Shown: positions 6,799-33,262 of the stretch, piece by piece | How positions within the stretch are numbered: the stretch's first letter is position 1 | How the letters are laid out: the number at the start of each line of letters is the position of its first letter | DNA from: an uncultured Chloroflexota bacterium | GTDB lineage: Bacteria > Chloroflexota > Anaerolineae > Aggregatilineales > Phototrophicaceae | Assembly: GCA_903864435.1 (NCBI GenBank) | Contig: CAIPFY010000430.1 | Coordinates: forward strand, 1-37,583 | Direction of reading: 5' to 3' | Length of the DNA: 37,583 nt | Made by a program: the position numbers and the translations under genes | Notes under the pieces: model-generated | The model's input: only the letters and a program-made list of their open reading frames with translations | What the model was told of the DNA's origin: nothing | Database searches by the model: none

Positions 6799-7670
6799 TC
6801 TTTGACTCCAGACAGAGCGATACTTTCGATAAATTGGCGTTGGCCTAGCAAGAACACAATGACCGTCGGAATCGTCGCCGTGACCGTGCCAGCCATCAGC
6901 AGCGTCCAATTTGTCGAATAGCGTCCCTGAAACATCACCAGACCGAGCTGAATCGTGCGCATATTCGGGTCATCCGTCACGATCAGCGGCCACAAAAAGT
7001 CATTCCACGCAAAGAGAAAGGCGAAAATCGCCAGCGTTGCCAGCGCAGGGCGCGACAGCGGTAGAATAATACGCCACCACACATCGAAATGCGACGCACC
7101 ATCAATGAACGCGGCTTCGTCCAGATCACGCGGGATGCTCAGGTAGAACTGCCGCAGCAGAAAAATCCCGAAAGCACTCACCATACGCGGCACAATCAAG
7201 GCCAAAAACGAGTTCTTCCACCCCAAGCTCAACACCGTCAAATACGACGGGATAATCAGAACTTGGATAGGCAGCATCATCGTGCCGAGCAGAATCAGGA
7301 ACAACACCTCACGCCCCGGAAACTTCAATCGCGCAAACGCATAGGCCGCTAGAGACGAGAACAGCAATTGACCGAGGGTAATCCCTAGCGCCATGATCGC
7401 CGTGTTCAGGTAGTAGCGGGCAAACGGCGCGGCATCCCACGCCTGCACATAATTCTGCCACTCAAACGTATCCGGGAATAGGTAGGGCGGCGAGTACGTC
7501 AAGCGGGCAGGCTTGAGCGACAGCGTAATCATCCACAAAAGCGGCGCAATCATCACAATTGCACCCGTTATCAAAATCAGATGGATGTACCAGCGGCGCG
7601 GTATCCAGCGTTTCCAGTTCGGCGCAGAAGCCGTTTGAGGCGTTCGTGCAGACAAGTGTTCAGTCGTCAT
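6795..7670 (-). CDS. Sugar ABC transporter permease, MalG type
   Basis: A 291-residue inner-membrane permease of the CUT1 carbohydrate family. Hydrophobic segments include LILITGAIVMIAPLLWMITL near residue 30 and several later helices. The EAA loop that contacts the ATPase is present as EAAFIDGASHFDVWWRIILP. It ends with a family-typical sequence close to FIESIALSGVKE. The ATG at 7670 is preferred over an upstream alternative (7748) because it overlaps the preceding stop as ATGA; its own stop overlaps the GH13 start in the same way. With the gene at 7667-8581 it forms the membrane channel of the importer. Confidence 0.93.
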   Translation of the reverse strand: MTTEHLSARTPQTASAPNWKRWIPRRWYIHLILITGAIVMIAPLLWMITLSLKPARLTYSPPYLFPDTFEWQNYVQAWDAAPFARYYLNTAIMALGITLGQLLFSSLAAYAFARLKFPGREVLFLILLGTMMLPIQVLIIPSYLTVLSLGWKNSFLALIVPRMVSAFGIFLLRQFYLSIPRDLDEAAFIDGASHFDVWWRIILPLSRPALATLAIFAFLFAWNDFLWPLIVTDDPNMRTIQLGLVMFQGRYSTNWTLLMAGTVTATIPTVIVFLLGQRQFIESIALSGVKE

Positions 7671-8581
7671 ACACTGCTCCGCCCGGATGTGCCGAACACC
7701 CGCCATTGAATCACCGTCACCAGTAGTACGATGAAGAACAGAACCCATCCCACCGCCGAGGCATCACCCAGATTGAAATACCGGAACGCCTCACGCCACA
7801 GGATGAACCCTAGCACTTCCGTCGAACCCACCGGGCCGCCCGTCCCATTGGACATCACGAATACCGTATCGAACACCAGAAACGCATCAATCAAGGACAT
7901 GATGGCGACCAGCAGCGTTGTAGGAGCCAGCATCGGCAGAGTGATATAGCGGAACTGTGCGCGTGTATTCGCGCCATCCACCATCGCCGCTTCATAGTAG
8001 GTACGCGGTATGGTTTGCAACCCCGCCAGAAAAATCACCATGTTGAAGCCGACCCGTTTCCACACGCCCACCAGAATCACAGCCAGCAGCGCAAAGCGTG
8101 GATCGGTCAACCACGCAGGCCCTTTGACGCCGATCTGTCGCAGCAAGGTGTTGACCAGACCTGACCCCGGATCGAGCAGATAGCGCCACACGGTTGCCGC
8201 GGCAACCGTTGCCGTCACCACCGGGATGAAGTAAAGAATGCGGTAGAAGGTCACGCCGCGAATGCCCGAATTGAGGAGCAATGCGATGAACAAGCCCCCC
8301 ACCGAACTTAGCAGGGTGATGCTCACCACATAAATCAGCGTAATTTGTAGGGAATGCCAGAACTGTGTGGAATTAAACAGATCAATATAATTTTGCAGCC
8401 CGACGAAATTTCGGTTGGATGAAAAACCATCCCAGTCATGCAGGCTCAAGTAGCCGGAGTATAGGATAGGGTAGATGCTGAAAATTCCGAGTACCAGTAT
8501 GGCGGGCAGCAAAGCGATGAATGCAGTCAACCATGTACTACGCGACTGTCGGCGGGCTGCCGATCCCGCTTTTACGGTCAT
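7667..8581 (-). CDS. Sugar ABC transporter permease, MalF/UgpA type
   Basis: A 304-residue CUT1 permease with about six membrane helices, the first being FIALLPAILVLGIFSIYPIL after a basic N-terminus. The EAA loop reads EAAMVDGANTRAQFRYITLP. An SD-like GGGAG lies 8 bases upstream of the ATG at 8581. Partner of the MalG-type permease, with which it overlaps by 4 bp. No ATPase gene accompanies the pair, so a shared ATPase encoded elsewhere is expected (known for MsmK/MsiK-type ATPases; inference here). Confidence 0.93.
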   Translation of the reverse strand: MTVKAGSAARRQSRSTWLTAFIALLPAILVLGIFSIYPILYSGYLSLHDWDGFSSNRNFVGLQNYIDLFNSTQFWHSLQITLIYVVSITLLSSVGGLFIALLLNSGIRGVTFYRILYFIPVVTATVAAATVWRYLLDPGSGLVNTLLRQIGVKGPAWLTDPRFALLAVILVGVWKRVGFNMVIFLAGLQTIPRTYYEAAMVDGANTRAQFRYITLPMLAPTTLLVAIMSLIDAFLVFDTVFVMSNGTGGPVGSTEVLGFILWREAFRYFNLGDASAVGWVLFFIVLLVTVIQWRVFGTSGRSSV

Positions 8582-8614
8582 AGGATGTACTCCCGATATT
8601 GCCCGTGCAAATCA

Positions 8615-8652
8615 TCGCTTCCGTCCGGCGACTAATCACCGAACGGAAGCGA
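8615..8652 (-). terminator. Intercistronic hairpin after binding-protein gene
   Basis: A perfect 10-bp stem (8615-8624 with 8643-8652, TCGCTTCCGT) lies in the 86-base gap between the binding-protein stop at 8668 and the first permease. No U tract follows. It probably stabilises the upstream mRNA or attenuates read-through so that binding protein exceeds permease. Confidence 0.6.
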
Positions 8653-8667
8653 CTTGCTACCCCAATG

Positions 8668-9912
8668 TTACCGCAACAGCGCGTTCACAGCCGTTTCTGC
8701 ACCGGCCAGCGCGTCTTCGGGAGTAATCTGCCCGTATAGCGCCTTCTCGATGAAACCGCTGAACACATCCGACAATTCGGGATAAACCTGCACAGACGGG
8801 CGGTTAATCGCGTACTGCTGATTTTCCACGAACGGGATCAAGCGCGGTTCGGTGTCCTTCAACCATGTCTGGAAACCGGCATCCGCCGCAACCGATGCAC
8901 GCACGGGCATAAAGGCCGTCTTTTGATCCCACACGGCCTGCGTTGCCGTGCTGGTCAGCCATTCCACAAACGTGAATGCTGCCTGTTGGGTGGCCTCATC
9001 ACTGCTGAAGATGGCGATGTGTTCGCCGCCCATATTGGTGGCCGGCTTGCCATCCGCAGGAATGGGCATCGAAGCAACGCTAAACGTAAAGGCCGATTGC
9101 GACGCGAGGCCGCTGACCATCCACGAGCCATCCATGCGCATACAGGCCTTGCCCTGATCGAACAAGCCCCACGGCGACAAGCTGCTGGCACCGCTGTCAA
9201 TCAGCGACTTCCAGTAGTTCACCGCCTGCAAACCAGCCGGTGTATTGAACGCCGCTGCCGTGTTATCGGCATTCAGGAATTCGCCACCCGACTGCCACAG
9301 ATACACCTGAAACTGCCACGTCAGACCTTCGCCGGGTTGGGTGAACAGTTCCATGCCCACAACACCCTGATCGGGATTCGCGCAGGCCTGCGCCGCCGCC
9401 GTCAGTTCGTCCCATGTGGTCGGCGGTGCAGCCGGGTCGAGTCCAGCGGCAGTGAACAGATCGTTGTTGATGAACAGTTCGAGGTTGTTCGTGCTGACAG
9501 GCAGGCCGAACAACTGATCGTTGTAGCGGTTGACGTTGAGCAGCGCCGGATAGAAGTCCGCCAGATCAACGCCTGCACTCTCGATGTAGGCATCCAGCGC
9601 CGCCACCTTGCCCGAATTGGCGAGCAAAGGCATCCACGCCATATCTACAGCGGCAATACCGGGAGCTTCGCCACCCGCAATTGCGGTTTGCAGACGGGGC
9701 AGCAATTCGCCCCAACCATAAAAGACATTTTCAACTTGAATGTTAGGATGGTCAGCATTGAACTGGTCAACCAACCCCTGAATCGCTTCCCCGTTATTGC
9801 CATCCCAGTAGTTCCAGAACTTCAGATGCACCGGGTCTTGAGCAGAAACCGAAACAGCGGAAAGCAGCATCAGGCAAACAACCAACAGACTCAGACGAAG
9901 TGTACGGGACAT
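8668..9912 (-). CDS. Extracellular sugar-binding protein, MalE/CUT1 type
   Basis: A 414-residue solute-binding protein (family 1) for an alpha-glucan or similar oligosaccharide importer. It has a Sec signal peptide (basic MSRTLRLS, hydrophobic core, cleavage likely at VSA/QD) without a lipobox cysteine. The mature part begins VHLKFWNYWDG, typical of the family, and includes GEGLTWQF and the C-terminal ALAGAETAVNALLR pattern. I prefer the ATG at 9912: GAGGTG lies 6 bases before it, whereas an upstream ATG at 9933 sits inside the probable leader beside the operator. First gene of the operon, directly behind promoter and operator. Substrate is inferred from the linked GH13 gene. Confidence 0.92.
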   Translation of the reverse strand: MSRTLRLSLLVVCLMLLSAVSVSAQDPVHLKFWNYWDGNNGEAIQGLVDQFNADHPNIQVENVFYGWGELLPRLQTAIAGGEAPGIAAVDMAWMPLLANSGKVAALDAYIESAGVDLADFYPALLNVNRYNDQLFGLPVSTNNLELFINNDLFTAAGLDPAAPPTTWDELTAAAQACANPDQGVVGMELFTQPGEGLTWQFQVYLWQSGGEFLNADNTAAAFNTPAGLQAVNYWKSLIDSGASSLSPWGLFDQGKACMRMDGSWMVSGLASQSAFTFSVASMPIPADGKPATNMGGEHIAIFSSDEATQQAAFTFVEWLTSTATQAVWDQKTAFMPVRASVAADAGFQTWLKDTEPRLIPFVENQQYAINRPSVQVYPELSDVFSGFIEKALYGQITPEDALAGAETAVNALLR

Positions 9913-9938
9913 TGAAAACACCTCAACTTTCATGCATA

Positions 9939-21945: not shown

Positions 21946-22776
21946 TTAGTTCATCTCGCTGCCGCCATCCAAATTGTAGGATTGGGCAGTGATATAGTCG
22001 GCCTCATCCGAACACAAGAACGCCGCCAGCGAGGCTACTTCAGGAATCGTTCCGGGGCTTTTCAACGGGATTTTCTGGATGCGCTGCTTAAAGAACTCGC
22101 CGGGAGCCAGATGTAGCTTCTCAGCCATGCGGTTATCCAGATTTTCGTAGAGCGCCGTCCAGATCGCCGCCGGACAGATGGCGTTTACGTTGATGTGGTA
22201 CGGTGCTAGTTCCATCGCCGTCGCCTGTGTGATGGTAATCACCGACGATTTGGACGTGGAGTAGTGAATGGCATCCGAACGTCCGCGTCGTCCGGCAATC
22301 GAGGCAATGTTGATAATCTTGCCCTGACAGGCATCCGAGCGCCCCGCCTGTCGAATCTCCGGCGGAACCTGCTCGATCATCTGACGGGCAACCGCCTGCG
22401 TGGTGAACAGCAGCCCGCGCACATTCACATACATCATGGCATCCCAATCTTTGGGTGTCATCTCCATCAGGGTCATCTTGTCCGAAATGCCCGCGTTGTT
22501 GACCAGAATATCAATCCGACCAAAATGTGCCACCACATCGGCAACCATCTGCGGGGTGCGGTCAGGATCGCCAATATCAATCGGATAAGATAGCGACTCG
22601 GGGCCAATTTTTGAGAAGTCCTGCGCCGCCTGTGCCGCCGTCGTCGGGTTGATTTCGGCGACCACCACATGCGCGCCTTCTTCGGCGAACCGTTTGGCGA
22701 TGCCATAGCCGATCCCCTGCCCTGAACCGGTCACAATAGCGATTTTGCCGTCAAGTCGTTTTGCGCTGTATGCCAT
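21946..22776 (-). CDS. SDR-family dehydrogenase (polyol/sugar type)
   Basis: A 276-residue classical short-chain dehydrogenase/reductase. TGSGQGIG (16-23) binds the dinucleotide; Glu41 after the second strand (VVVAEINP) favours NAD over NADP. NNAG is at 93-96, and the catalytic set is Ser159, Tyr172 and Lys176 (YSTSK). A short insertion around residues 137-151 precedes GKIINIAS. I chose the ATG at 22776 because AAAGG lies 7 bases upstream and the core starts directly after it; the alternative at 22848 adds 24 unusual residues. Probable role: oxidation of a polyol, or reduction of a ketose, in the pathway of the 33262-21946 operon, of which it is the last gene. A FabG-like role is possible but less likely in this context. 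Confidence 0.9.
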   Translation of the reverse strand: MAYSAKRLDGKIAIVTGSGQGIGYGIAKRFAEEGAHVVVAEINPTTAAQAAQDFSKIGPESLSYPIDIGDPDRTPQMVADVVAHFGRIDILVNNAGISDKMTLMEMTPKDWDAMMYVNVRGLLFTTQAVARQMIEQVPPEIRQAGRSDACQGKIINIASIAGRRGRSDAIHYSTSKSSVITITQATAMELAPYHINVNAICPAAIWTALYENLDNRMAEKLHLAPGEFFKQRIQKIPLKSPGTIPEVASLAAFLCSDEADYITAQSYNLDGGSEMN

Positions 22777-22858
22777 TCTGCTGCCTTTCACCTGTAGTAC
22801 GGCTGATGTTCGGGAAAACGGGGGCGAGAAAACACCGTCCCTAATCATTCATCAACAT

Positions 22859-22884
22859 GACGGGCGGGAGTGTTCCCGCCCGTC
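22859..22884 (-). terminator. Strong hairpin between the two SDR genes
   Basis: Perfect 11-bp stem GACGGGCGGGA (22859-22869) with TCCCGCCCGTC (22874-22884) and a 4-base loop, 56 bases after the stop of the upstream SDR gene. No U tract follows on the minus strand. It may terminate part of the transcripts or protect the mRNA, so the last SDR gene may be expressed differently. Confidence 0.65.
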
Positions 22885-22939
22885 TCAAGACCTGACCTCT
22901 GTTGTCAAAGGATGGATAAAAAATCCGGTCTGTGGCGCA

Positions 22940-23746
22940 TCACCACGCGCAGTAACCGCCATCAATGATAAGGTCGCTGCCCGTCATAAAATCTGACGCT
23001 TCGCAGGCCAGATAGACCACCGCGCCCTGCAAATCGGTCACTTCGCCCATCCGCGCCATCGGGGTCATCCCCATCCATCGCGGCAGGATAGCCTGCCCTT
23101 CCGGGGTCAGGAGCAGATCGTCAACCAGTTTGGTGCGCGTATAGCCGGGACTGATGGTGTTCACGCGGATGTGGCGCGGCGCCCATTCAGCCGCCATGCT
23201 GCGCGACAGGTGAATCACGCCCGCTTTGGACGCATTGTAGTGAACCTGATTCTGTGGCGTGACCGCAATCGTCCCCGCCATCGAAGCCGTGTTGATAATC
23301 TTGCCGTAACCGGCCTTCAGCATCACCCGCGCCTCGGCCTGTGCGCACAGGAACACGCCCTTCAAATTCAGGTCGAGCATTTGATCCCATTCCGCCTCGG
23401 TCATGGTTTCCGCCGCCGACCAGCGTGCAATGCCGGCGTTGTTCACGCCAATCGTCAGCTTGCCCCACTTCTGCACGACGGCATCCACCATCGCCTGCAC
23501 GTCATCCGCTTTCGACACATCCGCCTGCACCGCGAAACACTCGATATGCTTGGCCTTCAGTTCGTCCACCACATCGTTCGCATGTGACAGCGACAAATCC
23601 ACTACCGCGACCGCCGCGCCAGCCTCGCCTAGCGCATGAGCATAGGCGCGACCAATCCCTTGTCCACCGCCCGTCACTAGCGCCGTGCGTCCCACCAGAC
23701 TAAACCGTTCCAGTATCGGACGGGCAGTTAAAATTGCGTCAGTCAT
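22940..23746 (-). CDS. SDR-family dehydrogenase (ketose/polyol reductase type)
   Basis: A 268-residue classical [11 protein letters not shown] is at 25-32; Asp50 (VAVVDL) favours NAD(H). VNNAG is at 101-105, and the catalytic set is Ser155, Tyr170 and Lys174 (YNASK). The end IIDGGYCAW resembles sorbose reductase/gluconate 5-dehydrogenase-like members. The ATG at 23746 has GGAG 9 bases upstream; a further ATG at 23770 lacks this. It is separated by 56 bases from the SorC gene and by a 193-base stop-to-stop-free gap with a hairpin from the next SDR gene. It probably acts with that second SDR on the imported polyol or sugar; the direction of the reaction is unknown. Confidence 0.9.
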
Positions 23747-23802
23747 GATTCTAATCTCCAATTCCATCATAGACCTGACACACTTGGCTGAGTCAGGTTC
23801 TT

Positions 23803-24774
23803 CTATGCACTCACGCTGTTTGGCACATAGGCCAGCAAATGTTCGGCGGTGGGTTTATCCATCACCATTGTTCCCACCAGCTGCCCGGACAGCACACCGT
23901 ACAGCGCCGGAACTTTCGGTTTGCCAACCGCCACGCCAATCACTTGCTGGCGGTGGTGGGTCAGCCATTCCCGGCTGATCCCTATCCGGCGATGGTGAAG
24001 CTCAATATCCAGATAGTTACCATTCTGGTCGAAGTACAGCCCGCAAATATCCCCGACTGCGCCCTGTTCGCGCAGCTTTTCCACATACGACTGCTCGACG
24101 TAGCCAGCGCGAATCACGCTGCTCACCGACAAATCAGTGCTACCGATGCCCACCAGCGCAATATCCGAACTCTCCGCCAGACGGAGCGCGTCCGCCACCG
24201 TCGGGATACTGAGGAGCGAAGTGGCAACCGCCGCGTTCTCCACCAGCATCGGCGCGGAAAGCACCCGGAACTGGCTGCCCAACTTTTGCGCCGTTCGCAC
24301 CGCCAGATCAGGTGTATCCGTCAGGTTGGAGGCCGAACCCGCCGCACCGATCACCTGCACCACCAGCAATTGCGGAAGTTCCATCGAAGGTAGAGCTTCA
24401 ACGGTGGCGGCCACCGCCGTCCCCCACGAAATGCCTAGCACGCTGATATTCGGCAGATGGCGTGCAATCAATGCCGCCGCCATTTGCCCCACCATATAGA
24501 GCGCCTCGCTGGTGGAAACGGTGCCGCCTGTATCCACGACTGCGGCTTGCAACAGCCCGAAACGGGTTTGCAGCGCCCTTTCCAGCGCCTCATCGCGCAG
24601 CAGCGGTTGGTGTACCTCTATGCGAACAATCCCCGCTTTCCGCGCTTCCGTCAGAATACGGCTGATTGCAGACCGGGATACACCGACCACATCCGCTATT
24701 TCGTTTTGACTAAGATTATCCAAATAATACAGTCTGGAGACTCGTGCTAGTAAAATGGCACGTTCATTTTCCAT
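23803..24774 (-). CDS. SorC-family sugar-responsive transcriptional regulator
   Basis: A 323-residue regulator. The N-terminal HTH (about 19-43) reads [20 protein letters not shown]; the rest is a SorC/DeoR-type sugar-phosphate-binding domain ([46 protein letters not shown], all family landmarks). Members respond to phosphorylated sugars (LsrR, EryD and SorC are known examples). The ATG at 24774 is preferred to a TTG three codons earlier. It lies 20 bases after the E2 gene, inside the operon, and is the natural candidate to bind the 13-bp palindrome at 33196-33222, with the FGGY kinase product as inducer (inference). Confidence 0.93.
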
Positions 24775-24794
24775 GAGATTCAACCCGTGTTGAA

Positions 24795-25514
24795 CTAACC
24801 GTACAAGGTAGCCAACTCAGGATTCTCAAGAAGCTGCTTGAAGGTGAGCAAGAACCCGGCCGCATGGGCGCCGTCCACCACCCGATGATCCACGCCCAAC
24901 GTGGCAATCATCGTCGGAGCAACCACCAGCTGACCCTGACGCACAAATGGACGCTCACTCACCGTTCCCAACGACAGAATGGCTGACTGAGGAGATCGGA
25001 TAATAGATGTAAAACTATCCGGCCCTTCCTTGCCCATATTGGAAATTGTGAACGTCCCATTCAGCAGGTCATCAGCCGTCGTGCGCTGGCGTCGTGCGCG
25101 GTCTACCAGATCAATTGTCCGTGCCGCCAATTCCGGGAGGGGCGTTAAATCGGCGGCATGGACAACAGGGATTAGCATCCCATCTTCAAGCGCAACCACA
25201 ATCCCGATGTTGACCTCGCCATTATACACAATTGTTTCGCCATCTAGCGAAGCATTAAGCCGGGGATGCGCGTGCAACGTGGCAGCACACACCTTAACCA
25301 GCAGGTGCAGCAGTGAAATCTTGATGTCGGGATAGCGTTCGCGCAACTGATTAACGGCGTTCTTTGCGGGCAGCATGTCAATCTCGATCTGGCTATAGAA
25401 ATGCGGCGCCGTTTGCATACTAGCCGTCGTCATACGCGCAATCGCTTTGCGCATTTTCGACAGCGGAACTTGCCGCGTTTCCATTGGTGTCACCGGATTC
25501 GATTGATCGCTCAT
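24795..25514 (-). CDS. 2-oxoacid/acetoin dehydrogenase E2 catalytic domain only
   Basis: A 239-residue acyltransferase comprising only the E2 catalytic domain. The family active-site motif DHRVVDG is at 209-215 (His210, Asp214). TFTISNMGKEG (154-164) and APHFY near residue 36 are also typical. The lipoyl domain and the peripheral-subunit-binding domain that normally precede this core are missing: the protein starts about ten residues before the core. GGAG lies 6-9 bases upstream of the ATG. The lipoyl domain is supplied by the separate 87-residue gene 11 bases upstream. It should transfer an acyl group from lipoyl-lysine to CoA. No dihydrolipoyl dehydrogenase (E3) gene is present in the window. 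Confidence 0.92.
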   Translation of the reverse strand: MSDQSNPVTPMETRQVPLSKMRKAIARMTTASMQTAPHFYSQIEIDMLPAKNAVNQLRERYPDIKISLLHLLVKVCAATLHAHPRLNASLDGETIVYNGEVNIGIVVALEDGMLIPVVHAADLTPLPELAARTIDLVDRARRQRTTADDLLNGTFTISNMGKEGPDSFTSIIRSPQSAILSLGTVSERPFVRQGQLVVAPTMIATLGVDHRVVDGAHAAGFLLTFKQLLENPELATLYG

Positions 25515-25525
25515 GTCCCTCTCCG

Positions 25526-25789
25526 TCAGTTAATTCCCGAAATGTCCTCGTCGGGCGTGCCGATAATCGCCAGCAAATCGCCAACGGTTGCCGTTTGCCC
25601 TTCTTCAATCACGATTTTACGCAGCGTGCCGGAAGACAGGGCTTCCAGTTCCACCGTCGTCTTATCGGTTTCGATCTCCAGCAGCTTCTCGCCCTTCTGA
25701 ACCGGATCGCCTACGCTTTTCAACCATTTGAGGACGTTTGCCTCGTCAGACGAATCGCCCAGTGGGGGCATGGTGACACGATTTGCCAT
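25526..25789 (-). CDS. Free-standing lipoyl-domain carrier protein
   Basis: An 87-residue protein that is a single biotinyl/lipoyl domain. The modified lysine is Lys43 in IETDKTTVELEA, in the canonical ETDK turn; MPPLG at the N-terminus and GDLLAIIG near the end are typical. GAGGA lies 9 bases upstream of the ATG. It sits between E1 beta and the E2 core, with gaps of 12 and 11 bases, so it most likely carries the acyl group between them as the lipoyl arm of a split E2. A biotin carrier is less likely because the lysine is flanked by Asp and Thr rather than by Met residues. Confidence 0.92.
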   Translation of the reverse strand: MANRVTMPPLGDSSDEANVLKWLKSVGDPVQKGEKLLEIETDKTTVELEALSSGTLRKIVIEEGQTATVGDLLAIIGTPDEDISGIN

Positions 25790-25801
25790 AGGTGTTCTTC
25801 C

Positions 25802-26794
25802 TCAATGCACTTTCTGCTTGGATTCGAGCGTTTTCTCAATCGCCTTTTTGACCTGCTCCGCGTTCGGAACAAGGTACTTTTCGAGTGTCACATTGGCGGG
25901 CAGCGGCACATCCGGCGCGGTCACACGCTGCACTGGCGCCAGCAGTTCGCTGAACAGCGCCTCGTTGATGCGGGCGCTCAGTTCGCCGCCCAGCCCGCCC
26001 GTCAGCACCGCTTCATGCAGCACCACAGCGCGGCGGGTTTTGGCAACCGAACGCAGCACCGTATCCATATCCAGCGGCAGCAGGCTACGCAGGTCAATCA
26101 CTTCTACGCTGACATTCTGCTCCGCCAGTTGCTTCGCCGCATCCAGCGCCACATGCAACATGCGCGAGTAGGTAATCAACGTCACATCGCTGCCTTCGCG
26201 CTTCACATCCGCCACGCCAATCGGGGTGACATACGGCTCATCCGGCACTTCGTCCTTCACGGCGTACAGCCCCTTGTGTTCGAGGAAGATCACCGGATTG
26301 TCGTCCTGTATCGAAGCCCGCAGCAACCCGTAAGCATCGGCAGGTGTGGCAGGTGCCACCACTTTCAGCCCCGGCGTGTGAATGAACCATGATTCGAGGC
26401 TTTGCGAATGCTGCGCCCCTGCGCCGCGCCCCGTCCCCTGTTGGGTGCGGATGACGCACGGCACTTTGATCTGCCCACCGAACATATAATGAATCTTCGC
26501 CGCCTGATTCACGATCTGATCCATCGCCAGCGTGATGAAATCCACATACATAATTTCAGCCACAGGACGACCACCGACCATCGCAGCGCCCACCGCAGCG
26601 CCCACGATCATCGCTTCGGACATCGGGGTATCGCGCACTCGTTCCGTACCGAACTCCGCCGACAGCCCTTTCGTGACCGCGTAAGCGCCACCATAAGCAC
26701 CCACATCCTCACCGAGGACAAACACACGAGGATCGGCTTTCATTTCTTCATACAACGCACGACGCAGTGCGTCGCGGTACATCATCACAGACAT
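25802..26794 (-). CDS. Acetoin-dehydrogenase-type E1 beta subunit
   Basis: A 330-residue transketolase-like E1 beta subunit. Landmarks: VLGEDVGAYGGAYAVTKGL near residue 26, DTPMSEAMIVGAAVGAAM, EIMYVDFITLAMDQIVNQAAK, GTGRGAGAQHSQSLESWF and PVIFLEHKGLY. This pattern is closest to AcoB-type acetoin dehydrogenase subunits, with pyruvate dehydrogenase beta as the alternative. It completes the thiamine diphosphate site together with the alpha subunit encoded just upstream. GAGGAG lies 8 bases before the ATG. The gap to the alpha gene is 23 bases. Confidence 0.93.
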   Translation of the reverse strand: MSVMMYRDALRRALYEEMKADPRVFVLGEDVGAYGGAYAVTKGLSAEFGTERVRDTPMSEAMIVGAAVGAAMVGGRPVAEIMYVDFITLAMDQIVNQAAKIHYMFGGQIKVPCVIRTQQGTGRGAGAQHSQSLESWFIHTPGLKVVAPATPADAYGLLRASIQDDNPVIFLEHKGLYAVKDEVPDEPYVTPIGVADVKREGSDVTLITYSRMLHVALDAAKQLAEQNVSVEVIDLRSLLPLDMDTVLRSVAKTRRAVVLHEAVLTGGLGGELSARINEALFSELLAPVQRVTAPDVPLPANVTLEKYLVPNAEQVKKAIEKTLESKQKVH

Positions 26795-26817
26795 GAGTGG
26801 AACTCCTCTACAGCTTC

Positions 26818-27771
26818 TCAGGCGTAAATGTCTTCAAACAAGGTGGAAGGTTGCGCCAGCGGGCTATCCTCAGCGAACTTCACCGCTGCATCCAGCACCT
26901 CTTTGACCTGCTGTTCATACGCCTCGACATCCTGATCCGAGATCATTTCTGCGCCCACTTTGGCACGCATAATCGTCAGCGGATCACGGGCGCGTTCGCG
27001 TTCTTCTTCTTCGGCAGGGCGATACTTGGAAGGGTCGGCGCGGGAATGACCGAGGAAGCGATACGTGTGCGCCCCGATCAACGTGGGGCCTTCACCGCGC
27101 CGCGCCCGTTCAATCGCTTCCAGAGCCACTTCGCGCACCGCCAGCACGTCCTGTCCATCCACATCCACGCCCGGAATGCCGTAAGCGCGGGCGCGTTCCG
27201 TAAAGCTCAGCTGCGGCGTGGAGCGTTCCCATGCCAGCGACATCGCGTAATGGTTGTTTTCCACCACGAAGATGACCGGCAGCTTCCACAGCGCCGCCAT
27301 GTTGATCGATTCGTGCGTGATTCCTTCGTTCACCGCGCCTTCACCGAAGAAGCATACCGTCACCGCGTCGCTCTTGTTCAGGCTTGTCCACAGCGCCGCA
27401 CCGGTGGCGATGCCCAGATGCCCGCCCACAATCCCGTTCGCGCCCAGATGCCCGATGCTAACATCCGTGATGTGCATCGAACCGCCGCGCCCTTTGCAGT
27501 AGCCGGTTTCCTTGCCGAACAGTTCTGCCATCATCCGACTAAGCCCGCCGCCACGAGCAATAAAATGCCCGTGACCGCGATGGGTGCTGGTCAAATAGTC
27601 CTGCGGTTGCATGGCGCTGCACACGCCCGCCGCCACCGCTTCCTGCCCGATGCTCACATGACACATCGTACTGGCAAGGTTGCCCTTCATCATCTCCTCA
27701 AGGATGCGCTCCTCCGAACGACGGATGAGCAGCATACTGTGGTAAAGTGACTTCGTTAGATCGAGTTCCAC
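26818..27771 (-). CDS. Acetoin-dehydrogenase-type E1 alpha subunit
   Basis: A 317-residue thiamine-diphosphate-dependent E1 alpha subunit. It has STHRGHGHFIARG (62-74), GYCKGRGGSMHI (90-101) and the thiamine motif GEG...NN (143-173; the usual GDG reads GEG). These features match AcoA-type acetoin dehydrogenases, which split acetoin to acetaldehyde and an acetyl group passed to lipoyl-E2; branched-chain or pyruvate dehydrogenase alpha are relatives. The start is GTG at 27771, supported by GGAG at 27779-27782 with a 7-base spacer. It lies 12 bases after the kinase stop, so the complex is co-expressed with the sugar kinase. Substrate unknown. Confidence 0.93.
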   Translation of the reverse strand: MELDLTKSLYHSMLLIRRSEERILEEMMKGNLASTMCHVSIGQEAVAAGVCSAMQPQDYLTSTHRGHGHFIARGGGLSRMMAELFGKETGYCKGRGGSMHITDVSIGHLGANGIVGGHLGIATGAALWTSLNKSDAVTVCFFGEGAVNEGITHESINMAALWKLPVIFVVENNHYAMSLAWERSTPQLSFTERARAYGIPGVDVDGQDVLAVREVALEAIERARRGEGPTLIGAHTYRFLGHSRADPSKYRPAEEEERERARDPLTIMRAKVGAEMISDQDVEAYEQQVKEVLDAAVKFAEDSPLAQPSTLFEDIYA

Positions 27772-27783
27772 TGTATTTCTCCG

Positions 27784-29346
27784 TTATTGCTGTTTCGCCA
27801 CATGATCCGCCATCGTGTGCATCAGATCACGCATTTGCGGATAGGTCGCAATGTATTGATCTACATAGAAGCGATAGGCTTCATGGGCTTCGAGGTTGGG
27901 TTCAAAGCAGTTCACAATGCGAACCATCTGCTTAGACGCTTCCCCCGGCGTTTTGTAAATCCCCGCGCCAATCGCTGCCAGCGCCGCCGAACCGAGCATC
28001 GCCGCCGCATCCCCCGCTTCGGTGATGTTGATCGGCACGTTGCTCACATCGGCGTGAATCTGCATCCACAGCTTGCTCTTGACCGGCCCACCCGCCGCCA
28101 CAATCTGTTTGGCGGCGTACCCGTTCTGGCTGAACACGCGCAGGATATGCTCTGTGCCGTAAGCCACGCCTTCCATGATGGCGCGGAACACATGCGCCGG
28201 CGTGTGACTGAGCGTGAAGCCCCACATCATCCCACGCGCACGCGGATCAACCAGCGGTGTGCGGTTGCCCTGCCAGTAGTCCAGCACGACCAGTCCATCC
28301 GAACCGGGGCGAATTTTCGCCGCTTCCGGCGTCATCAGGTCATACAGGTTCGCCCCGCTTTGATCGGCTTCGCGCAACCAGCGCCCGCCGATGAAATTAT
28401 CCTTGAACCAGCGCATGATCGAGCCGGTAGAAATCTGTCCGCCTTCCACCGTGTACTGTCCGGGGATCAGGCAGTCGGTATACGCACCGAAAATCCCCTT
28501 GCCGTGAAACTGCGTGGCTGACTGACCGAGCAACAGATGGGACGACCCCACGATGAACGCGATCTTACCCGGTTCCACCACATCGAGGCCGATCATGGCG
28601 ACCAGCGCATCCGCGCCGCCTTCCGCCACCGGCGTACCGGCCACCAGCCCCAGTTCAGAGGCCGCCGCCGCAGACAGTCCGCCCGCCACCTGCCCCAGAT
28701 CGAGGATGCGCTGCGGGAACTTCTCGATCAAATCACCGAGTCCGATCCCCTCGTAAAAATCCGTCGGCCAGCCGCCCGCGTTCCGGTCATAGTACCAGCG
28801 CAAACTGGTGTTATTGATGCTGCCCGTCCATTCGCCCGTCAGCCGGTACGTAACCCAGTCGTTAAAATCGCCCACATAGCGCGACTTCTGGTAAACCTCC
28901 GGTTCGTTCTCCTTCACCCACAGCGCCTTACACGGCATCCACTCCGCCGAAACGTTCCCGAACCCGTTGTACTTCAGCGCCGGATACCCGCTGGCCGCGA
29001 TGCGGCTCGACTGTTCGGCAGCACGCACGTCCATCCAGATGATCGCCGGACGCACGGGCTGGAAGTTCTCGTCCATCATCACGACGGTACACGAAGTCGT
29101 ATCGCTGCTGATGCCCTTGATCGCCTCCGGCGCGACCTTCGCAACCGCGACCGCCCCGCGCACCGCCACCACCATCGCCGTCCACCACTCATCGGGACTC
29201 TGCTCCGCCCACGACGGACGCGGATGCCGCAGCGCGTACCCGTGCGCGTGTGAACCGACTAACGTGCCCGTCGGCGTGAACACACCGGCTCGAACACTTT
29301 CCGTTCCAAAATCTATGCCCAGCACATATACGTCAGACATGCTCAT
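27784..29346 (-). CDS. FGGY-family carbohydrate kinase (ribulokinase-like)
   Basis: A 520-residue kinase of the size usual for FGGY. FGGY_N begins VLGIDFGTESVRAGVF; SSDTTSCTVVMMD and IIWMDVRA follow; the catalytic Asp is in GGADALVAMIG (about residue 246). The C-terminal half has IVGSSHLLLGQ, YWQGNRTPLVDPRARG and AAGGPVKSKLWMQIHADV. The GTES-VRAG start resembles ribulokinases more than xylulokinases or glycerol kinases, pointing to a ketopentose, ketotetrose or similar substrate (inference). Among several start codons the ATG at 29346 has AAGGGG at the best distance; 29340 is also possible. It lies between the transporter and the E1 genes, so it should phosphorylate the imported sugar or the product of the SDRs. 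Confidence 0.92.
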   Translation of the reverse strand: MSMSDVYVLGIDFGTESVRAGVFTPTGTLVGSHAHGYALRHPRPSWAEQSPDEWWTAMVVAVRGAVAVAKVAPEAIKGISSDTTSCTVVMMDENFQPVRPAIIWMDVRAAEQSSRIAASGYPALKYNGFGNVSAEWMPCKALWVKENEPEVYQKSRYVGDFNDWVTYRLTGEWTGSINNTSLRWYYDRNAGGWPTDFYEGIGLGDLIEKFPQRILDLGQVAGGLSAAAASELGLVAGTPVAEGGADALVAMIGLDVVEPGKIAFIVGSSHLLLGQSATQFHGKGIFGAYTDCLIPGQYTVEGGQISTGSIMRWFKDNFIGGRWLREADQSGANLYDLMTPEAAKIRPGSDGLVVLDYWQGNRTPLVDPRARGMMWGFTLSHTPAHVFRAIMEGVAYGTEHILRVFSQNGYAAKQIVAAGGPVKSKLWMQIHADVSNVPINITEAGDAAAMLGSAALAAIGAGIYKTPGEASKQMVRIVNCFEPNLEAHEAYRFYVDQYIATYPQMRDLMHTMADHVAKQQ

Positions 29347-29364
29347 CATCAACCCCTTCTCGCT

Positions 29365-30363
29365 TTAGAAGAAGCGAATTTCTTCGCGCCGTACCGCCAG
29401 TGATACCGCGAGAATAAGTACGGAACCCTTGACGATGGTCTGAAGGAAAAACGGCGCACCCACAAGGTTCAAACCGTTATTGATGATACCGAGAATGAGC
29501 ACACCGACAATGGTGCCGAGGATATTGGCCTGCCCGCGCCGAATAGTGGTCATGCCAATGAACACTGCTGCGAGGCTGTCCATCGCATAATTGTCTGCGC
29601 CGGAAGGCTGTGCCGAACCGAGGTACGACACGAGGATGCTGCCGCCCATCGCCGCGCAGAAACCGCTAATCATCAACGCGATCAGGCGATACTTATTGAT
29701 GTTGATACCACTCAGGCGCGTCGCCGTCGGGTTGCCACCTGTCGCCAGAATGTAGCGCCCGGTGCGGGTGTAGTTCAGGAACACGTACAGAACCGCCACC
29801 ACCGCTGCCGACACGATCACCACGAACGGAATCGGGCCAATCGTACCCGTGCCGATGAAGGTGTATTCTTCCGGCATACGCCCGTAAATCGAGTCGCCGC
29901 GTGCATAGGCGTAGTTCACGCCCACTGCGATTAGCCCCATACCGAGGGTGGTAATCAACGACGGAATTTTGAAGCGCGTCACCAGCATACCGGTAATCAG
30001 GCCAGCCAGCATACCCGTCCCCAGCGCACCAATTGCCGCCACGCCCCACGGCAATTCCTGCCGGACGATCAACCCCGCCATCAAAATACCCGTCAAACTG
30101 GCGACCTGCCCGACGGACAGATCAAACTCGCCAGCGGCGACCGCGATGGTCAACCCGCTTGCCACGATAGCCAGTGTTGCCACTTGGCGCAGAATGTTAA
30201 TCAGGTTCTGGCTGGTCAGGAAGCGACCACCCTGAAAGGACGACAGCACGGAGAACAACACGAAAATGACGATGAGGGCAAGTACGGTTCCGAACCGATT
30301 TACAAAGTTGCCGACATCAAACCCTCGCGGTTCATTGGACTTGGAGTTGGAAATTTGAGCCAT
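29365..30363 (-). CDS. Sugar ABC transporter permease, RbsC type
   Basis: A 332-residue CUT2-family permease with 8-10 hydrophobic segments (e.g. LALIVIFVLFSVLSSF; ILGIINNGLNLVGAPFF). Family landmarks: VASGLTIAVAAGEFDLSVG, ILATGGNPTATRLSGIN and MDSLAAVFIGMTTIRRGQ. The ATG at 30363 is favoured over a GTG at 30375; GTGGA lies just upstream. Only one permease gene occurs, as in ribose importers, so it probably forms a homodimer. Confidence 0.93.
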   Translation of the reverse strand: MAQISNSKSNEPRGFDVGNFVNRFGTVLALIVIFVLFSVLSSFQGGRFLTSQNLINILRQVATLAIVASGLTIAVAAGEFDLSVGQVASLTGILMAGLIVRQELPWGVAAIGALGTGMLAGLITGMLVTRFKIPSLITTLGMGLIAVGVNYAYARGDSIYGRMPEEYTFIGTGTIGPIPFVVIVSAAVVAVLYVFLNYTRTGRYILATGGNPTATRLSGININKYRLIALMISGFCAAMGGSILVSYLGSAQPSGADNYAMDSLAAVFIGMTTIRRGQANILGTIVGVLILGIINNGLNLVGAPFFLQTIVKGSVLILAVSLAVRREEIRFF

Positions 30364-30420
30364 CGAATTATCCACTTTTTACTAGATTCTAAGAAGTCAA
30401 CACGTTGCGATGCAGTTCAC

Positions 30421-31914
30421 CTAGCCGCCCATCATCTGTTGCAAGATGGAGTCGTGGGTGAATTCCTGCTTCAACCCTTCATTGATAATCTGCCCCCGGC
30501 GCATGACGTACAGCCGATCCGAAATCGCCATCAGCTCATCCAGATCGGACGAGGTGATGAGGACAGCCGCCCCCTGCGCCGCCAGATTGCGGATAATCAC
30601 CCACATATCGGCGCGTGCGCCCACATCCACGCCTTCGGTTGGCTCATCGAACATAAAGATCAAGCCGCGCACATCGTCCGAGGATGCCAGCCACTTGCCG
30701 AAAACCACTTTCTGCTTGTTACCGCCACTCAGGGATTGCACCGGTGTATTCAGCGAAGGTGGCATAATCCGCAGCCGATCCATCGCCTTGGTCGCAGCTT
30801 CTTGCATCTTCTTTTGCTGAAGCCATCCCAACCGCCCGCTGTACCGCTTGAGCGAAGCCACCGTCAGGTTCTCCAGCACATTCATGCGGTTCAGCAACCC
30901 CTTCTCGATGCGCTTATCAGGAACCAGCACGATGCCATGCCGGATTGCGTTCTCAGGTGAAGTAATCTGCGTGGGTTTGCCCTCCAGCAGAATCTTGCCG
31001 CTGGTGGCACGCCGGAACCCAACCAGTGTTTCCAGAAGTTCGGTGCGCCCTGCGCCAACCATACCCGCCAAACCCACCACTTCCCCGCTGTTGATTTTCA
31101 GGTTTACGCCCTGAAACTCCGCTGAGGATAGGTTTTGAGTCTCCAGCAGCACGGCGCCTATATTCAGAGTCGGCGTCGTTTCCAGTTTCGCCACACTACG
31201 CCCCACAATGTCCTGAGTGACCCGCGCAGGCGTATATTCGCTAATCGGGCCACTACTCACCACATGACCATCTCGAAGAATGGTCATCGAGTCGGAAATC
31301 TCAAACACCTCGTCCAGACGATGCGAGACGAAGATGATGCCGATCCCCTGTTTCTTGAATTGGCGCAGCAGGTCAAATAGATGCTTGGTTTCGGCCTGCG
31401 ACAGCGCCGCAGTCGGTTCGTCCAGAACCATCACCTTCGGTTCAGTACGCAGCGCCCGCACGATGTCCACCAACTGCTGCTGCCCCGCGCCCAGTTGGAT
31501 CACTTCCTTATTCAGGTCAAGTTCTACACCCAACCGCTTGAGCAATTGATCGGCTCGTTCGTTGAGTTTACGGCGGTTAATCAGTTGGCCTCTGCCGGGT
31601 TCCAGCCCTAACATGATGTTTTCCGCGATAGTGAAATGCGGAATGAGCGTTCGCTCTTGATAGACGACCACGATACCGTTACGCATCGCGTCGGCAGTAT
31701 TATTGATCTGAAGAAGATTGTGCTGGAGTTTGATCGTGCCGCTGTCCGGCGGTTGTGCGCCGCAGATAATCTTGACTAGCGTGCTTTTGCCCGCGCCGTT
31801 CACGCCCAGAAGCGCATGAACTTCGCCGCTGCGAAGCGTAAAATCTACGTTGTTGAGCGCGGTAACGCCGGGGTAGATTTTAGAAATGCCTTGGAGTTCA
31901 AGTAAGGTTTCCAC
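30421..31914 (-). CDS. Sugar ABC transporter ATPase, RbsA type (two domains)
   Basis: A 497-residue fusion of two nucleotide-binding domains. The first has Walker A GVNGAGKST (37-45), a degenerate signature LGAGQQQL and Walker B VMVLDEPTAAL. The second has a degenerate Walker A (GMVGAGRTEL), an intact signature LSGGNKQKV and Walker B LIFMFDEPTEGVDVG. This asymmetry is normal for RbsA/MglA-type ATPases. The start is GTG at 31914 with no strong SD. It energises the RbsC-type permease encoded next. Confidence 0.95.
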   Translation of the reverse strand: METLLELQGISKIYPGVTALNNVDFTLRSGEVHALLGVNGAGKSTLVKIICGAQPPDSGTIKLQHNLLQINNTADAMRNGIVVVYQERTLIPHFTIAENIMLGLEPGRGQLINRRKLNERADQLLKRLGVELDLNKEVIQLGAGQQQLVDIVRALRTEPKVMVLDEPTAALSQAETKHLFDLLRQFKKQGIGIIFVSHRLDEVFEISDSMTILRDGHVVSSGPISEYTPARVTQDIVGRSVAKLETTPTLNIGAVLLETQNLSSAEFQGVNLKINSGEVVGLAGMVGAGRTELLETLVGFRRATSGKILLEGKPTQITSPENAIRHGIVLVPDKRIEKGLLNRMNVLENLTVASLKRYSGRLGWLQQKKMQEAATKAMDRLRIMPPSLNTPVQSLSGGNKQKVVFGKWLASSDDVRGLIFMFDEPTEGVDVGARADMWVIIRNLAAQGAAVLITSSDLDELMAISDRLYVMRRGQIINEGLKQEFTHDSILQQMMGG

Positions 31915-31971
31915 AACAGTAAATAATCCGTTGTAAAGGAATGAGAAGCAGCGTTAGGGAGTTTACAAACA

Positions 31972-32009
31972 GGAGGATAGAGCGAGACTGCTTAATCGCC
32001 CCATCCTCC
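31972..32009 (-). terminator. Intercistronic attenuator-like hairpin
   Basis: In the 110-base gap after the binding-protein gene: a 7-bp outer stem (31972-31978 with 32003-32009, GGAGGAT), a symmetric 3-base interior loop, then a 4-bp inner stem GCGA (31982-31985) with TCGC (31996-31999). On the minus strand TGTTTGT follows, a partial U tract. It probably lowers transcription into the ATPase gene. Confidence 0.6.
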
Positions 32010-32024
32010 AGCAAATCAGATCAG

Positions 32025-33131
32025 TTACGCCCCGACCTGACCTTTGGCCTGATTCATGAACTGGGTGTAGAAGTCCACCGTATCCCACGGCATCTTGCCG
32101 GTTTCAGGCAGGTTGACACCCTTGACGATGAACGGTGCGGGGAAGTCAATCTGCGGAACCGGTACAACTTCCGCCGCCGGACGACCCTTGCCCACGATTT
32201 CGTCAATGAACGAGGCAGCCAGCGCGCCCCACAGCTCGAAAGCCTGTGCGCAGGTGGCGACCATCGTGTAGTCCGCATCCGCCATCAGTTCCACCGCCGG
32301 CGGATGACCGTCAGCAGCAACCACAATGGTGTCCTTCACGGTCTTGCCGAAGCTCAGCAGCGCCTGCGAAGCGGCCATCGCGGGTTCGTCCCACGGGCAC
32401 CAAATCGCGTCAATTTCGCCACCGAAGCGGTTCAGCCAGTCGTTGACGGTGTTGAGGGTGGTTTCAAAGAAACCGTCGTACTGGATGACCTGATCGCCAG
32501 CAACCTTGATGTTCTCGTTCTCGCTCAGAACGGCATCACGCACCTTGCCGCGTTTGCGCGTGCCGTGATGGAAGTTGGCGGTGATGGTGCAGATGTTCGG
32601 TTCGGTCTTGCCTGCGCCGAGCAGGCTCTGAACCATGTACGAAGTCATCTGTGCGCCCATCGTGTAGTTGTTCGAGGCAATATCGCACAGCGCCGGAGGA
32701 TAGTAGCCCGAGTCCACCGTAATCAGCGGAATGCCAGCGGCGGCAACCGACTGCAACGCGCCCTGAGCAGCGGTCAGCGTGCCGAATGTCACAACGATCG
32801 CATCCACTTTGCGCGAAACGGCATCTTCGATCATGGCCGACAGCGTTTCCGGGCTGCCTTCAGCGTTGGAAACCGTCACGTCCCACGACAGACCCGCAGC
32901 CGCCAACCAGTCTTCCCAGCCCTTCAGCGTGCGCTGGTCGCTCTGAGCAGACATCTGCTGGGCAATGTGCGCCACCGTCAAGCTGGACTGACGACGGGGC
33001 AGGCTGCTCACATGCGAGAAATTGCGCTTGATCGAAGCCAGCGAACGATTAATGTTCGTCCCCATCAGGCCCAACCCAGCAGCACCAACGGCTGACGACT
33101 GAAGAAATTTACGGCGAGTGATACCAGTCAT
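32025..33131 (-). CDS. Tat-exported sugar-binding protein, RbsB-like
   Basis: A 368-residue periplasmic-binding-protein type 1 (CUT2). The N-terminus has a twin-arginine signal, TRRKFLQSSAVGAAGLGLMG, without a lipobox and without a clear AxA cleavage site (SLA near residue 32 is possible). The mature part has TVAHIAQQM, AVSRKVDAIVV, AAAGIPLITVDSGYY and IDAIWCPWDEPAMAASQAL, typical of sugar-binding members. AAGGGGAC lies 6 bases before the ATG. First gene of the operon, directly behind promoter and palindrome. Ligand unknown: a pentose, tetritol or deoxy sugar would suit the downstream enzymes. Confidence 0.92.
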   Translation of the reverse strand: MTGITRRKFLQSSAVGAAGLGLMGTNINRSLASIKRNFSHVSSLPRRQSSLTVAHIAQQMSAQSDQRTLKGWEDWLAAAGLSWDVTVSNAEGSPETLSAMIEDAVSRKVDAIVVTFGTLTAAQGALQSVAAAGIPLITVDSGYYPPALCDIASNNYTMGAQMTSYMVQSLLGAGKTEPNICTITANFHHGTRKRGKVRDAVLSENENIKVAGDQVIQYDGFFETTLNTVNDWLNRFGGEIDAIWCPWDEPAMAASQALLSFGKTVKDTIVVAADGHPPAVELMADADYTMVATCAQAFELWGALAASFIDEIVGKGRPAAEVVPVPQIDFPAPFIVKGVNLPETGKMPWDTVDFYTQFMNQAKGQVGA

Positions 33132-33195: not shown

Positions 33196-33222
33196 CAAAT
33201 GTGAGTTAGTAACTCACATTTG
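33196..33222 (-). promoter_or_regulatory. 13-bp palindromic operator at +1 of sugar operon
   Basis: Perfect inverted repeat with 13-bp arms around a central G: CAAATGTGAGTTA (33196-33208) and its complement (33210-33222). It starts a few bases after the predicted transcription start near 33227 and would block elongation or initiation when bound. The SorC-family regulator in the operon is the likely ligand. Confidence 0.85.
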
Positions 33223-33233
33223 CTCATACAGGT

Positions 33234-33262
33234 AGCATAGAGTCTTTTGTAGAATTTGTCAA
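33234..33262 (-). promoter_or_regulatory. Sigma70-type promoter of sugar operon
   Basis: On the minus strand: -35 TTGACA (33262-33257, consensus), 17-base spacer, -10 TATGCT (33239-33234). The binding-protein start codon is about 96 bases downstream of the predicted start point. Confidence 0.8.

Follow-up and report, generated by a model that had tools for sequence, protein, structure and literature searches.

The window analysed here, a stretch of 37,583 nucleotides from an uncultured Chloroflexota bacterium (contig CAIPFY010000430.1), carries an operon that combines genes for sugar uptake and phosphorylation with those for a dehydrogenase complex of the acetoin/pyruvate type. Eleven co-directional, close-packed genes occupy positions 21946–33131 on the minus strand, as a sequence-only reading of the same DNA had described, and family searches bear out each of the gene families that it named. 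In the order of transcription, they encode an Rbs-type solute-binding protein (SBP; 32025–33131, PF13407), an ATP-binding cassette (ABC) sugar ATPase of the RbsA/AraG type (30421–31914), an RbsC-type ABC sugar permease (29365–30375), an FGGY kinase of the pentulose-kinase group (27784–29352), the alpha and beta subunits of a thiamine pyrophosphate (TPP)-dependent E1 (26818–27771 and 25802–26794), a free-standing lipoyl carrier protein of 87 residues (25526–25789), an E2 acyltransferase core (24795–25514), a SorC-family sugar-binding regulator (23803–24783), and two short-chain dehydrogenases/reductases, SDR2 (22940–23770) and SDR1 (21946–22848). The intergenic gaps in this order are 110, 45, 12, 12, 23, 12, 11, 11, 32, and 91 bp, so that the widest lie 3' of the SBP gene (110 bp) and 5' of the last SDR gene (91 bp) and the rest fall between 11 and 45 bp. 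The assignments come from family searches (for the kinase and permease against NCBIfam only, for the SBP against Pfam only), supplemented by an alignment and a tree for the kinase, an alignment and motifs for E1-alpha, trees for E1-beta, and motifs for the lipoyl carrier, the E2, and the SDRs. Within that scope, no aldolase, isomerase, epimerase, or lipoamide dehydrogenase (E3) was found among the eleven genes, which upholds the earlier statement that the operon has no aldolase or isomerase gene. Both SDRs carry the TGxxxGxG and YxxxK motifs and, because of these and an acidic residue after strand β2 (judged by eye), read as NAD-type; SDR1 resembles iditol and acetoin reductases, and its start may be internal (the orthologue in the related locus L055 has 276 residues). 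A GC-rich hairpin without a T-run lies between the two SDR genes (22849–22939).

The E1, lipoyl carrier, and E2 proteins belong to the 2-oxo acid/acetoin dehydrogenase superfamily, as judged by the motifs GEGA...NN in the E1-alpha, ETDK in the carrier, and an intact HRVVDG in the E2, and by matches to the Pfam families E1_dh, Biotin_lipoyl, and 2-oxoacid_dh. The E2 does not form the three-domain chain of lipoyl, subunit-binding, and catalytic domains: its 239 residues comprise the catalytic core alone (PF00198 spans residues 12–235), and the lipoyl domain resides on the separate 87-residue protein. For both E1 subunits, the best curated models are those of pyruvate dehydrogenase (PDH); the E1-beta passes the cut-off of the broad model PRK09212, and the E1-alpha reaches 355.4 of the 393.85 bits required by the PDH E1 alpha model TIGR03182. 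The lipoyl carrier is best matched by an acetoin-type E2 model, and the E2 core by an acetyl-transferring one. More distant relatives of the E1-alpha, at 34% identity in the search with this subunit, are encoded by two IMG/VR viral contigs (L053 and L054).

The joining of kinase and E1 recurs far beyond the window. A kinase-alignment search of a genome collection, from which the best 80 of 219 loci were kept, revealed 26 among the 80 in which genes for E1-alpha, E1-beta, and a lipoyl protein (AcoC or a free carrier) all lie no more than 5 kb from the kinase; 10 are from Chloroflexota and 16 from Proteobacteria. This count includes L072, which was labelled as having none on the kinase tree because an overlapping open reading frame hid its lipoyl gene, and leaves out L063 and L087, where the E1-beta near the kinase is of another type. 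Conservation in other Chloroflexota of the kinase, E1/E2, SorC, and RbsABC genes, which had been put forward as a check on the sequence-only reading, is seen in five loci (L055–L059) with the order SBP–ATPase–permease–kinase–E1-alpha–E1-beta–lipoyl carrier–E2–SorC, two of which (L055 and L056) also have both SDRs. L060, L062, L071, L072, and L077, also from Chloroflexota, have kinase–E1-alpha–E1-beta–lipoyl carrier together with other partners. The unit is kept in Alpha- and Betaproteobacteria as well, where the E2 is of the alpha/beta-hydrolase type, AcoC (445.6 bits against a cut-off of 307 for that of L117). There, most of the 16 loci and four annotated plasmid records have SorC followed by SBP–ATPase–permease–E1-alpha–E1-beta–AcoC–(CMD)–kinase–SDR(–SDR), and L130, L131, L133, and L134 are arranged in other ways; the CMD gene, a small one of the carboxymuconolactone decarboxylase family, lies between AcoC and the kinase in L135–L138. 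In the family to which the host of L117 belongs, the kinase is present in 16 of 297 genomes, with AcoC adjoining it in 16 of 17 loci (the exception being L203). Because gene order is reshuffled and the E2 type swapped while kinase and E1 stay together, the two are presumably functionally linked, and since the gene set recurs in different orders in distant phyla, the operon is not a chance assembly.

As the rows of these comparisons were sampled through the kinase, the existence of an E1 clade with kinase-linked members only (see below) is partly a sampling effect; searches with the E1-beta are free of that bias. Of 446 plasmid records matching the E1-beta, nine do so at 77% identity or more, the next best reaching about 48%, and in all nine the kinase is no more than 2 kb away, as shown by annotation for four and by coordinates for five. 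Similarly, when 400 genomes of the window's phylum (taken as Chloroflexota from their named matches) were searched, with at most five candidates scored per genome, an E1-beta with at least 70% identity was found in two (G000 and G283), adjoined by the kinase in both. The kinase–E1 association is genuine.

Trees of the E1 subunits place the kinase-linked proteins of Chloroflexota and Proteobacteria in a single clade. In a tree of joined E1-beta and E1-alpha sequences (56 rows kept from 74 E1-beta and 73 E1-alpha, leaving out near-copies, locus duplicates, L063, L066, and loci without both subunits), this clade comprises 28 rows with support of 98/98; a quick E1-beta tree of 71 rows, which left out three rows and identical copies, gives 91. 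The members share an active-site feature: the residue next to the catalytic GH-S/A/G of E1-alpha is an arginine in 31 of 31 kinase-linked proteins (GHSRADP with Arg244 in the window), whereas human PDH has a methionine at the aligned site (GHSMSDP). A second E1 clade has lysine or arginine here in nine of nine cases, and eight of these loci encode the reductoisomerase DXR-II, the ninth (L157) having none in the stretch read. Lysine was also found in all seven DXR-II-linked loci fetched after the motif had been defined. Among 32 other E1-alphas, only four are basic at this site (L156, L159, L160, and L179), the others having valine (16), isoleucine (5), glutamate (3), or another residue (4), and near-copies are frequent among both the 31 and the 32. 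L179 groups with the second clade in the joined tree, though without DXR-II in its 12.6-kb stretch, and L156 has a SorC gene close by. One of the glutamates belongs to L087 (GHFEGDH), our single acetoin-type reference, whose E1 adjoins an NAD-kinase-like gene (NAD_kinase domain) that we take to be AcoX. A basic residue in the active site fits an anionic or phosphorylated substrate.

What that substrate may be is suggested by the second clade, which is mostly found near SorC, a polyol phosphotransferase system (PTS) or ABC importer, and DXR-II, the enzyme that interconverts methylerythritol phosphate and 1-deoxyxylulose 5-phosphate (DXP). Rhizobial plasmids carry the order DRL–E1-alpha–E1-beta–E2, some with SorC, lpdA, or lipA added; DRL is DXR-II according to PF21135, and the Sinorhizobium meliloti protein scores 695 bits to the solved structure 3UPL, presumably that of Brucella DRL. 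DRL lies about 1.1 kb from E1-beta, with room for E1-alpha, in all 13 plasmid records common to the matches listed for the two proteins (40 of 446 for E1-beta and 60 of 88 for DRL). Further loci include uptake genes, namely an ABC importer with a PfkB kinase in L149 and a glucitol-type PTS in L151 and L152; in L148 and L150 (Listeria and Ligilactobacillus), DRL is accompanied by SorC-type and PTS-Gut genes, and no E1 is seen in the stretch. The E1-beta tree placed a Chloroflexota row, L166, with the second clade, and its locus was then found to hold DRL, PTS-Gut, E1-alpha–E1-beta–E2, and SorC. DRL is present in 37 of the 400 genomes of the window's phylum. Regions were read in nine of the 12 near-complete genomes with DRL at 50% identity or more: in eight of the nine, polyol-PTS genes, DRL, and E1-alpha–E1-beta–E2 occur within about 13 kb, with SorC in seven of the eight, DRL and E1 sharing a strand in L245, L246, L247, and L250 and lying on facing strands in L185, L248, L249, and L252; in the ninth, L251, DRL is at a contig end and no E1 is seen. 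The unread genomes (G050, G059, and G148) have, on the contig that carries DRL, an E1-beta match at a distance of about 9.6 kb. In all, DXR-II near E1-alpha–E1-beta–E2, in most cases accompanied by SorC and by genes for a polyol PTS or an ABC importer, was seen in L185, L245–L250, L252, L143, L145, L147, L149, and L151–L153.

These arrangements suggest that DXR-II has a catabolic role. The series of polyol PTS, DXR-II, and acyloin-cleaving complex would read as methylerythritol phosphate being converted to DXP, and DXP to acetyl-CoA and glyceraldehyde 3-phosphate. An active DXR-II has been reported from Chloroflexus and placed among mevalonate-only strains, and how the redundancy evolved is left as a question in that paper (PMC3847144), in which the words "acetoin" and "catabol" do not occur.

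Several DXP-related partners meet either the window-type kinase or these E1s. A Priestia plasmid unites a window-family kinase (47–48%), DRL, E1, E2, E3, and SorC within about 13 kb; a stretch of about 15 kb takes in two SorC genes and PTS-Gut as well. Chloroflexota sister kinases (L067 and L086) lie near genes for MtnA, MtnK, DhaK, DhaL, an importer, a 6-phosphogluconate dehydrogenase (6PGDH)-like protein, and a RuBisCO-like protein, the type of protein that serves the methylthioxylulose phosphate route in Rhodospirillum. In that organism, the route leads to DXP (PMC6302742). Finally, the Rhodobacter locus L130 combines SorC, a TIM-barrel protein, MtnK-like and MtnA-like proteins, a class II aldolase, E1-alpha, E1-beta, AcoC, and the kinase; a kinase, an isomerase, and an aldolase make up the 5-deoxyribose salvage set as described in the literature (PMC6079011).

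Other surroundings of the kinase were also recorded. A RuBisCO-like protein stands beside it in L064–L068, L070, L074, L076, and L086, several of which add DhaK/DhaL, a 6PGDH-like dehydrogenase, MtnK, and MtnA, and Clostridia loci (L101–L103, L105–L110, L112, L113, and L116) have a UlaE-like TIM barrel, often with BtpA, an M29 peptidase-like protein, and DhaKL. The RuBisCO-like and 6PGDH-like partners prompted a reading in terms of D-apiose, which was dropped: the RuBisCO-like protein of L045 scores 84.6 bits against an OiaX cut-off of 700 and is closer to the enolase of methionine salvage, whose cut-off it also misses (222 of 409). The window operon has no RuBisCO-like gene according to the family searches.

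The pathway that we propose for the window would begin with the Rbs-type importer bringing in a polyol or a deoxy-sugar. Oxidation of this compound by the two SDRs would give a 1-deoxyketose, 1-deoxy-D-xylulose or a close isomer of it being the most likely, and the FGGY kinase would convert the ketose to DXP or a similar 1-deoxyketose phosphate. From the family and the motifs present, the TPP carbanion of E1-alpha/beta would then add to the C2 ketone and the C2–C3 bond would be cut, freeing glyceraldehyde 3-phosphate, and the acetyl group would pass to the free lipoyl protein and, via the E2 core, to CoA, with an E3 encoded elsewhere in the genome reoxidising the lipoyl group to yield NADH. 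Acetoin dehydrogenase E1 cleaves acetoin by the same C2–C3 chemistry, and it is from such family members that we infer the chemistry of this complex. We give an even chance to the reading that DXP, or a 1-deoxyketose phosphate close to it, is split by the complex into acetyl-CoA and glyceraldehyde 3-phosphate. The sequence-only reading had proposed acyloin-type cleavage of a ketose or 1-deoxyketose phosphate; the single unit of kinase, E1, and importer, the arginine where the acetoin-type reference has glutamate, and the DXR-II/E1 loci that point to DXP partly support it and allow us to narrow it, with moderate confidence, to a DXP-type 1-deoxyketose phosphate. The proposed reaction reverses the C–C bond-forming step in DXP synthesis and uses CoA as the acyl acceptor, and the DXR-II loci carry related E1s, but the window complex is a heteromeric, lipoyl-linked E1/E2 and not a homodimer such as DXS. 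A mutant PDH E1 of E. coli raised DXP about 20-fold in cells, the reverse of the proposed reaction (PMC3424233), which indicates that an E1 is able to work on DXP when the reaction runs towards synthesis.

The host genome, given as 94.5% complete, encodes one E3 scoring above cut-off, on another contig. No DXR-I was found in it by a search whose controls were detected in 10 of 14 cases, and no DXS reaches the cut-off, the best match having 150.6 of 466 bits; DXP would therefore not be drawn from isoprenoid synthesis. A second E1-alpha–E1-beta–E2 set of the host (G000:C232, L255) has a GHSK loop, and an FGGY kinase and a SorC gene lie at a distance of about 5–7 kb, with RpiB near, so that a linkage to sugars may be more widespread among such complexes. 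As read by eye only, this second set also adjoins a GpsA-like gene and an ABC importer.

A number of observations weigh against the proposed pathway. No DXR-II was found in the host genome either (a further search agreed, but its controls were silent too), so that the link to DXP is by analogy with the second E1 clade, and the joined tree does not support that clade as sister to the kinase-linked one; the basic residue may hence be ancestral or convergent. The E1 of the Priestia plasmid likewise belongs to the second clade and not to that of the window. The kinase has other partners among the 80 loci, namely Rpe-like (6), UlaE-like (12), RuBisCO-like (10), and ADH/AraM (7) proteins, and its substrate may accordingly vary or be an ordinary pentulose. 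The SBP matches are of ribose type with no ligand named, nor did a fold search reveal one, and the SDRs need not make a 1-deoxyketose. Within the complex, the TPP motif of the E1-alpha is GEGA, with glutamate for the aspartate of the usual GDGA, a feature common to L055–L059, and no E2 gene was seen beside E1 and lipoyl carrier in L060, L062, L071, L072, and L077 (the stretch of L062 ends soon after). Finally, 54 of the 80 kinase loci, some on short contigs, have no full E1 set within 5 kb, and on the kinase tree the E1 partner is gained or lost repeatedly (seven label changes, one label being wrong). The sequence-only reading had named separation of the kinase and E1/E2 genes as grounds for giving it up, and the outcome is divided: the kinase often occurs without E1, yet wherever the searches made brought up E1 of this clade, the kinase adjoined it.

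Two of the rival explanations keep a role for the complex in the sugar pathway but change what it acts on. It could oxidise an aldehyde or 2-oxo acid formed in the pathway, such as acetaldehyde, lactaldehyde, glycolaldehyde, or pyruvate, without cleaving a sugar phosphate. An acetoin-dehydrogenase homologue in a rhamnose cluster of Caldicellulosiruptor has been proposed to handle lactaldehyde (PMC8579813), and the Rhodobacter locus has the type of three-gene set that turns 5-deoxyribose into dihydroxyacetone phosphate and an aldehyde. This 5-deoxyribose salvage (DHAP shunt) shares with our system the joining, in that related locus, of MtnK-like, MtnA-like, and class II aldolase genes with E1, AcoC, and kinase; genes of these three types are, however, absent from the window operon, where neither an aldolase nor another gene that would produce an aldehyde was found, and a conserved arginine or lysine in the active site would not be expected for a small neutral aldehyde, leaving this explanation unlikely. 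The complex could instead cleave an ordinary ketopentose 5-phosphate of the xylulose or ribulose type, formed from a pentitol by SDR and kinase, to glycolyl-CoA and glyceraldehyde 3-phosphate. Glycolyl-CoA from a plain ketose is possible: the kinase matches pentulose kinases (TIGR01315, XylB, and ribulokinase, all below cut-off), its relatives are paired with Rpe- or UlaE-like epimerases, RpiB, and transketolase, and the SBP is of the ribose type. Against this, the DXR-II and 5-deoxyribose-salvage partners indicate a methyl ketone, acetyl-type (PDH/Aco) models are the best matches of the E1, E2, and lipoyl proteins, and the operon has no apparent gene for handling glycolyl-CoA; we consider the ketopentose rather unlikely.

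It is very unlikely that the complex is a plain acetoin or pyruvate dehydrogenase, placed in a sugar operon by co-regulation only. The PDH models that match both E1 subunits best, with E1-beta above the PRK09212 cut-off, would agree with it; the E1-alpha, however, falls short of the PDH cut-off, the acetoin-type E1 of L087 has glutamate where this clade has arginine, and the kinase–E1 pairing is kept across phyla despite reshuffled order. As a known system, PDH shares with the window the E1 families and motifs and an E2 core best matched by an acetyl-transferring model, but in the window the E2 is split into a core and a free lipoyl protein, an arginine replaces the human methionine, and the genes belong to a sugar operon. 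Acetoin dehydrogenase (AcoABC/L) has in common with the window the TPP-dependent E1-alpha/beta, an E2 model matched by the carrier, and the AcoC-type E2 used by the proteobacterial versions, but the window operon lacks AcoX, AcoR, and E3 genes, its E1-alpha has the arginine, and it is linked to kinase and importer. The sequence-only reading had also noted a likeness to Lsr and erythritol loci, which holds insofar as a SorC regulator, an FGGY kinase, and an Rbs-type importer are shared. In a pathway of this kind, the kinase would phosphorylate autoinducer-2 or a closely related dicarbonyl, and E1/E2 would stand in for LsrF/LsrG in cleaving it. The SBPs of the sister loci L044 and L067 do match LsrB, with top scores of 84 and 91 bits, but 5bra, named for ribose, far better (292 and 281). 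The likeness is otherwise generic: the kinase has 202.7 of the 528 bits set for LsrK and the regulator 145.9 of the 486 for LsrR, the window's own SBP has no LsrB among its matches, no LsrF or LsrG is among those listed for the ten genes scanned (best 25, for the SDRs and ATPase), and the cleavage is here ascribed to a TPP–lipoyl complex. We therefore regard an Lsr-like pathway as highly improbable.

Control of the operon may also lie within the window. Ahead of it, 5' of the SBP gene, the sequence read directly has a consensus-like sigma-70-type promoter on the minus strand (TTGACA-N17-TATGCT, 33234–33262) and a 27-bp palindrome with perfect arms (33196–33222; core ATGTGA-N9-TCACAT at 33199–33219), a candidate SorC operator. 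Half-sites ATGTGA/TCACAT with the same 9-base spacing also occur upstream of the SBP gene in the closest relatives, L055 and L056, and were not seen in the other eight of the ten upstream stretches examined. The regulator is a SorC-family member by its Sugar-bind domain (PF04198, 196 bits) and several helix-turn-helix matches, and it would sense a phosphate of the pathway and act at the palindrome. Elsewhere on the minus strand (4362–9933), the window has an alpha-amylase gene with genes for a LacI-type regulator and a maltose-type ABC importer.

Searches of the CC-licensed PMC literature brought up nothing that we recognised as describing this operon or the catabolism of DXP. Tentatively, and at somewhat less than an even chance, we suggest that DXP-cleaving, acetyl-transferring complexes form a family that serves as a hub for the catabolism both of 1-deoxyketoses, entering through SDR and FGGY kinase, and of 2-C-methylerythritol, entering through a polyol PTS or an ABC importer plus kinase, with DXR-II then leading from methylerythritol phosphate to DXP. 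Such complexes would add an oxidative ketol cleavage that leads straight to acyl-CoA to the known repertoire of aldolases, transketolase, and phosphoketolase. If the hub exists, it would explain why DXR-II is kept by bacteria that do not need it for isoprenoids, and would thereby offer a testable answer to its persistence in bacteria with DXR-I or with the mevalonate pathway only.

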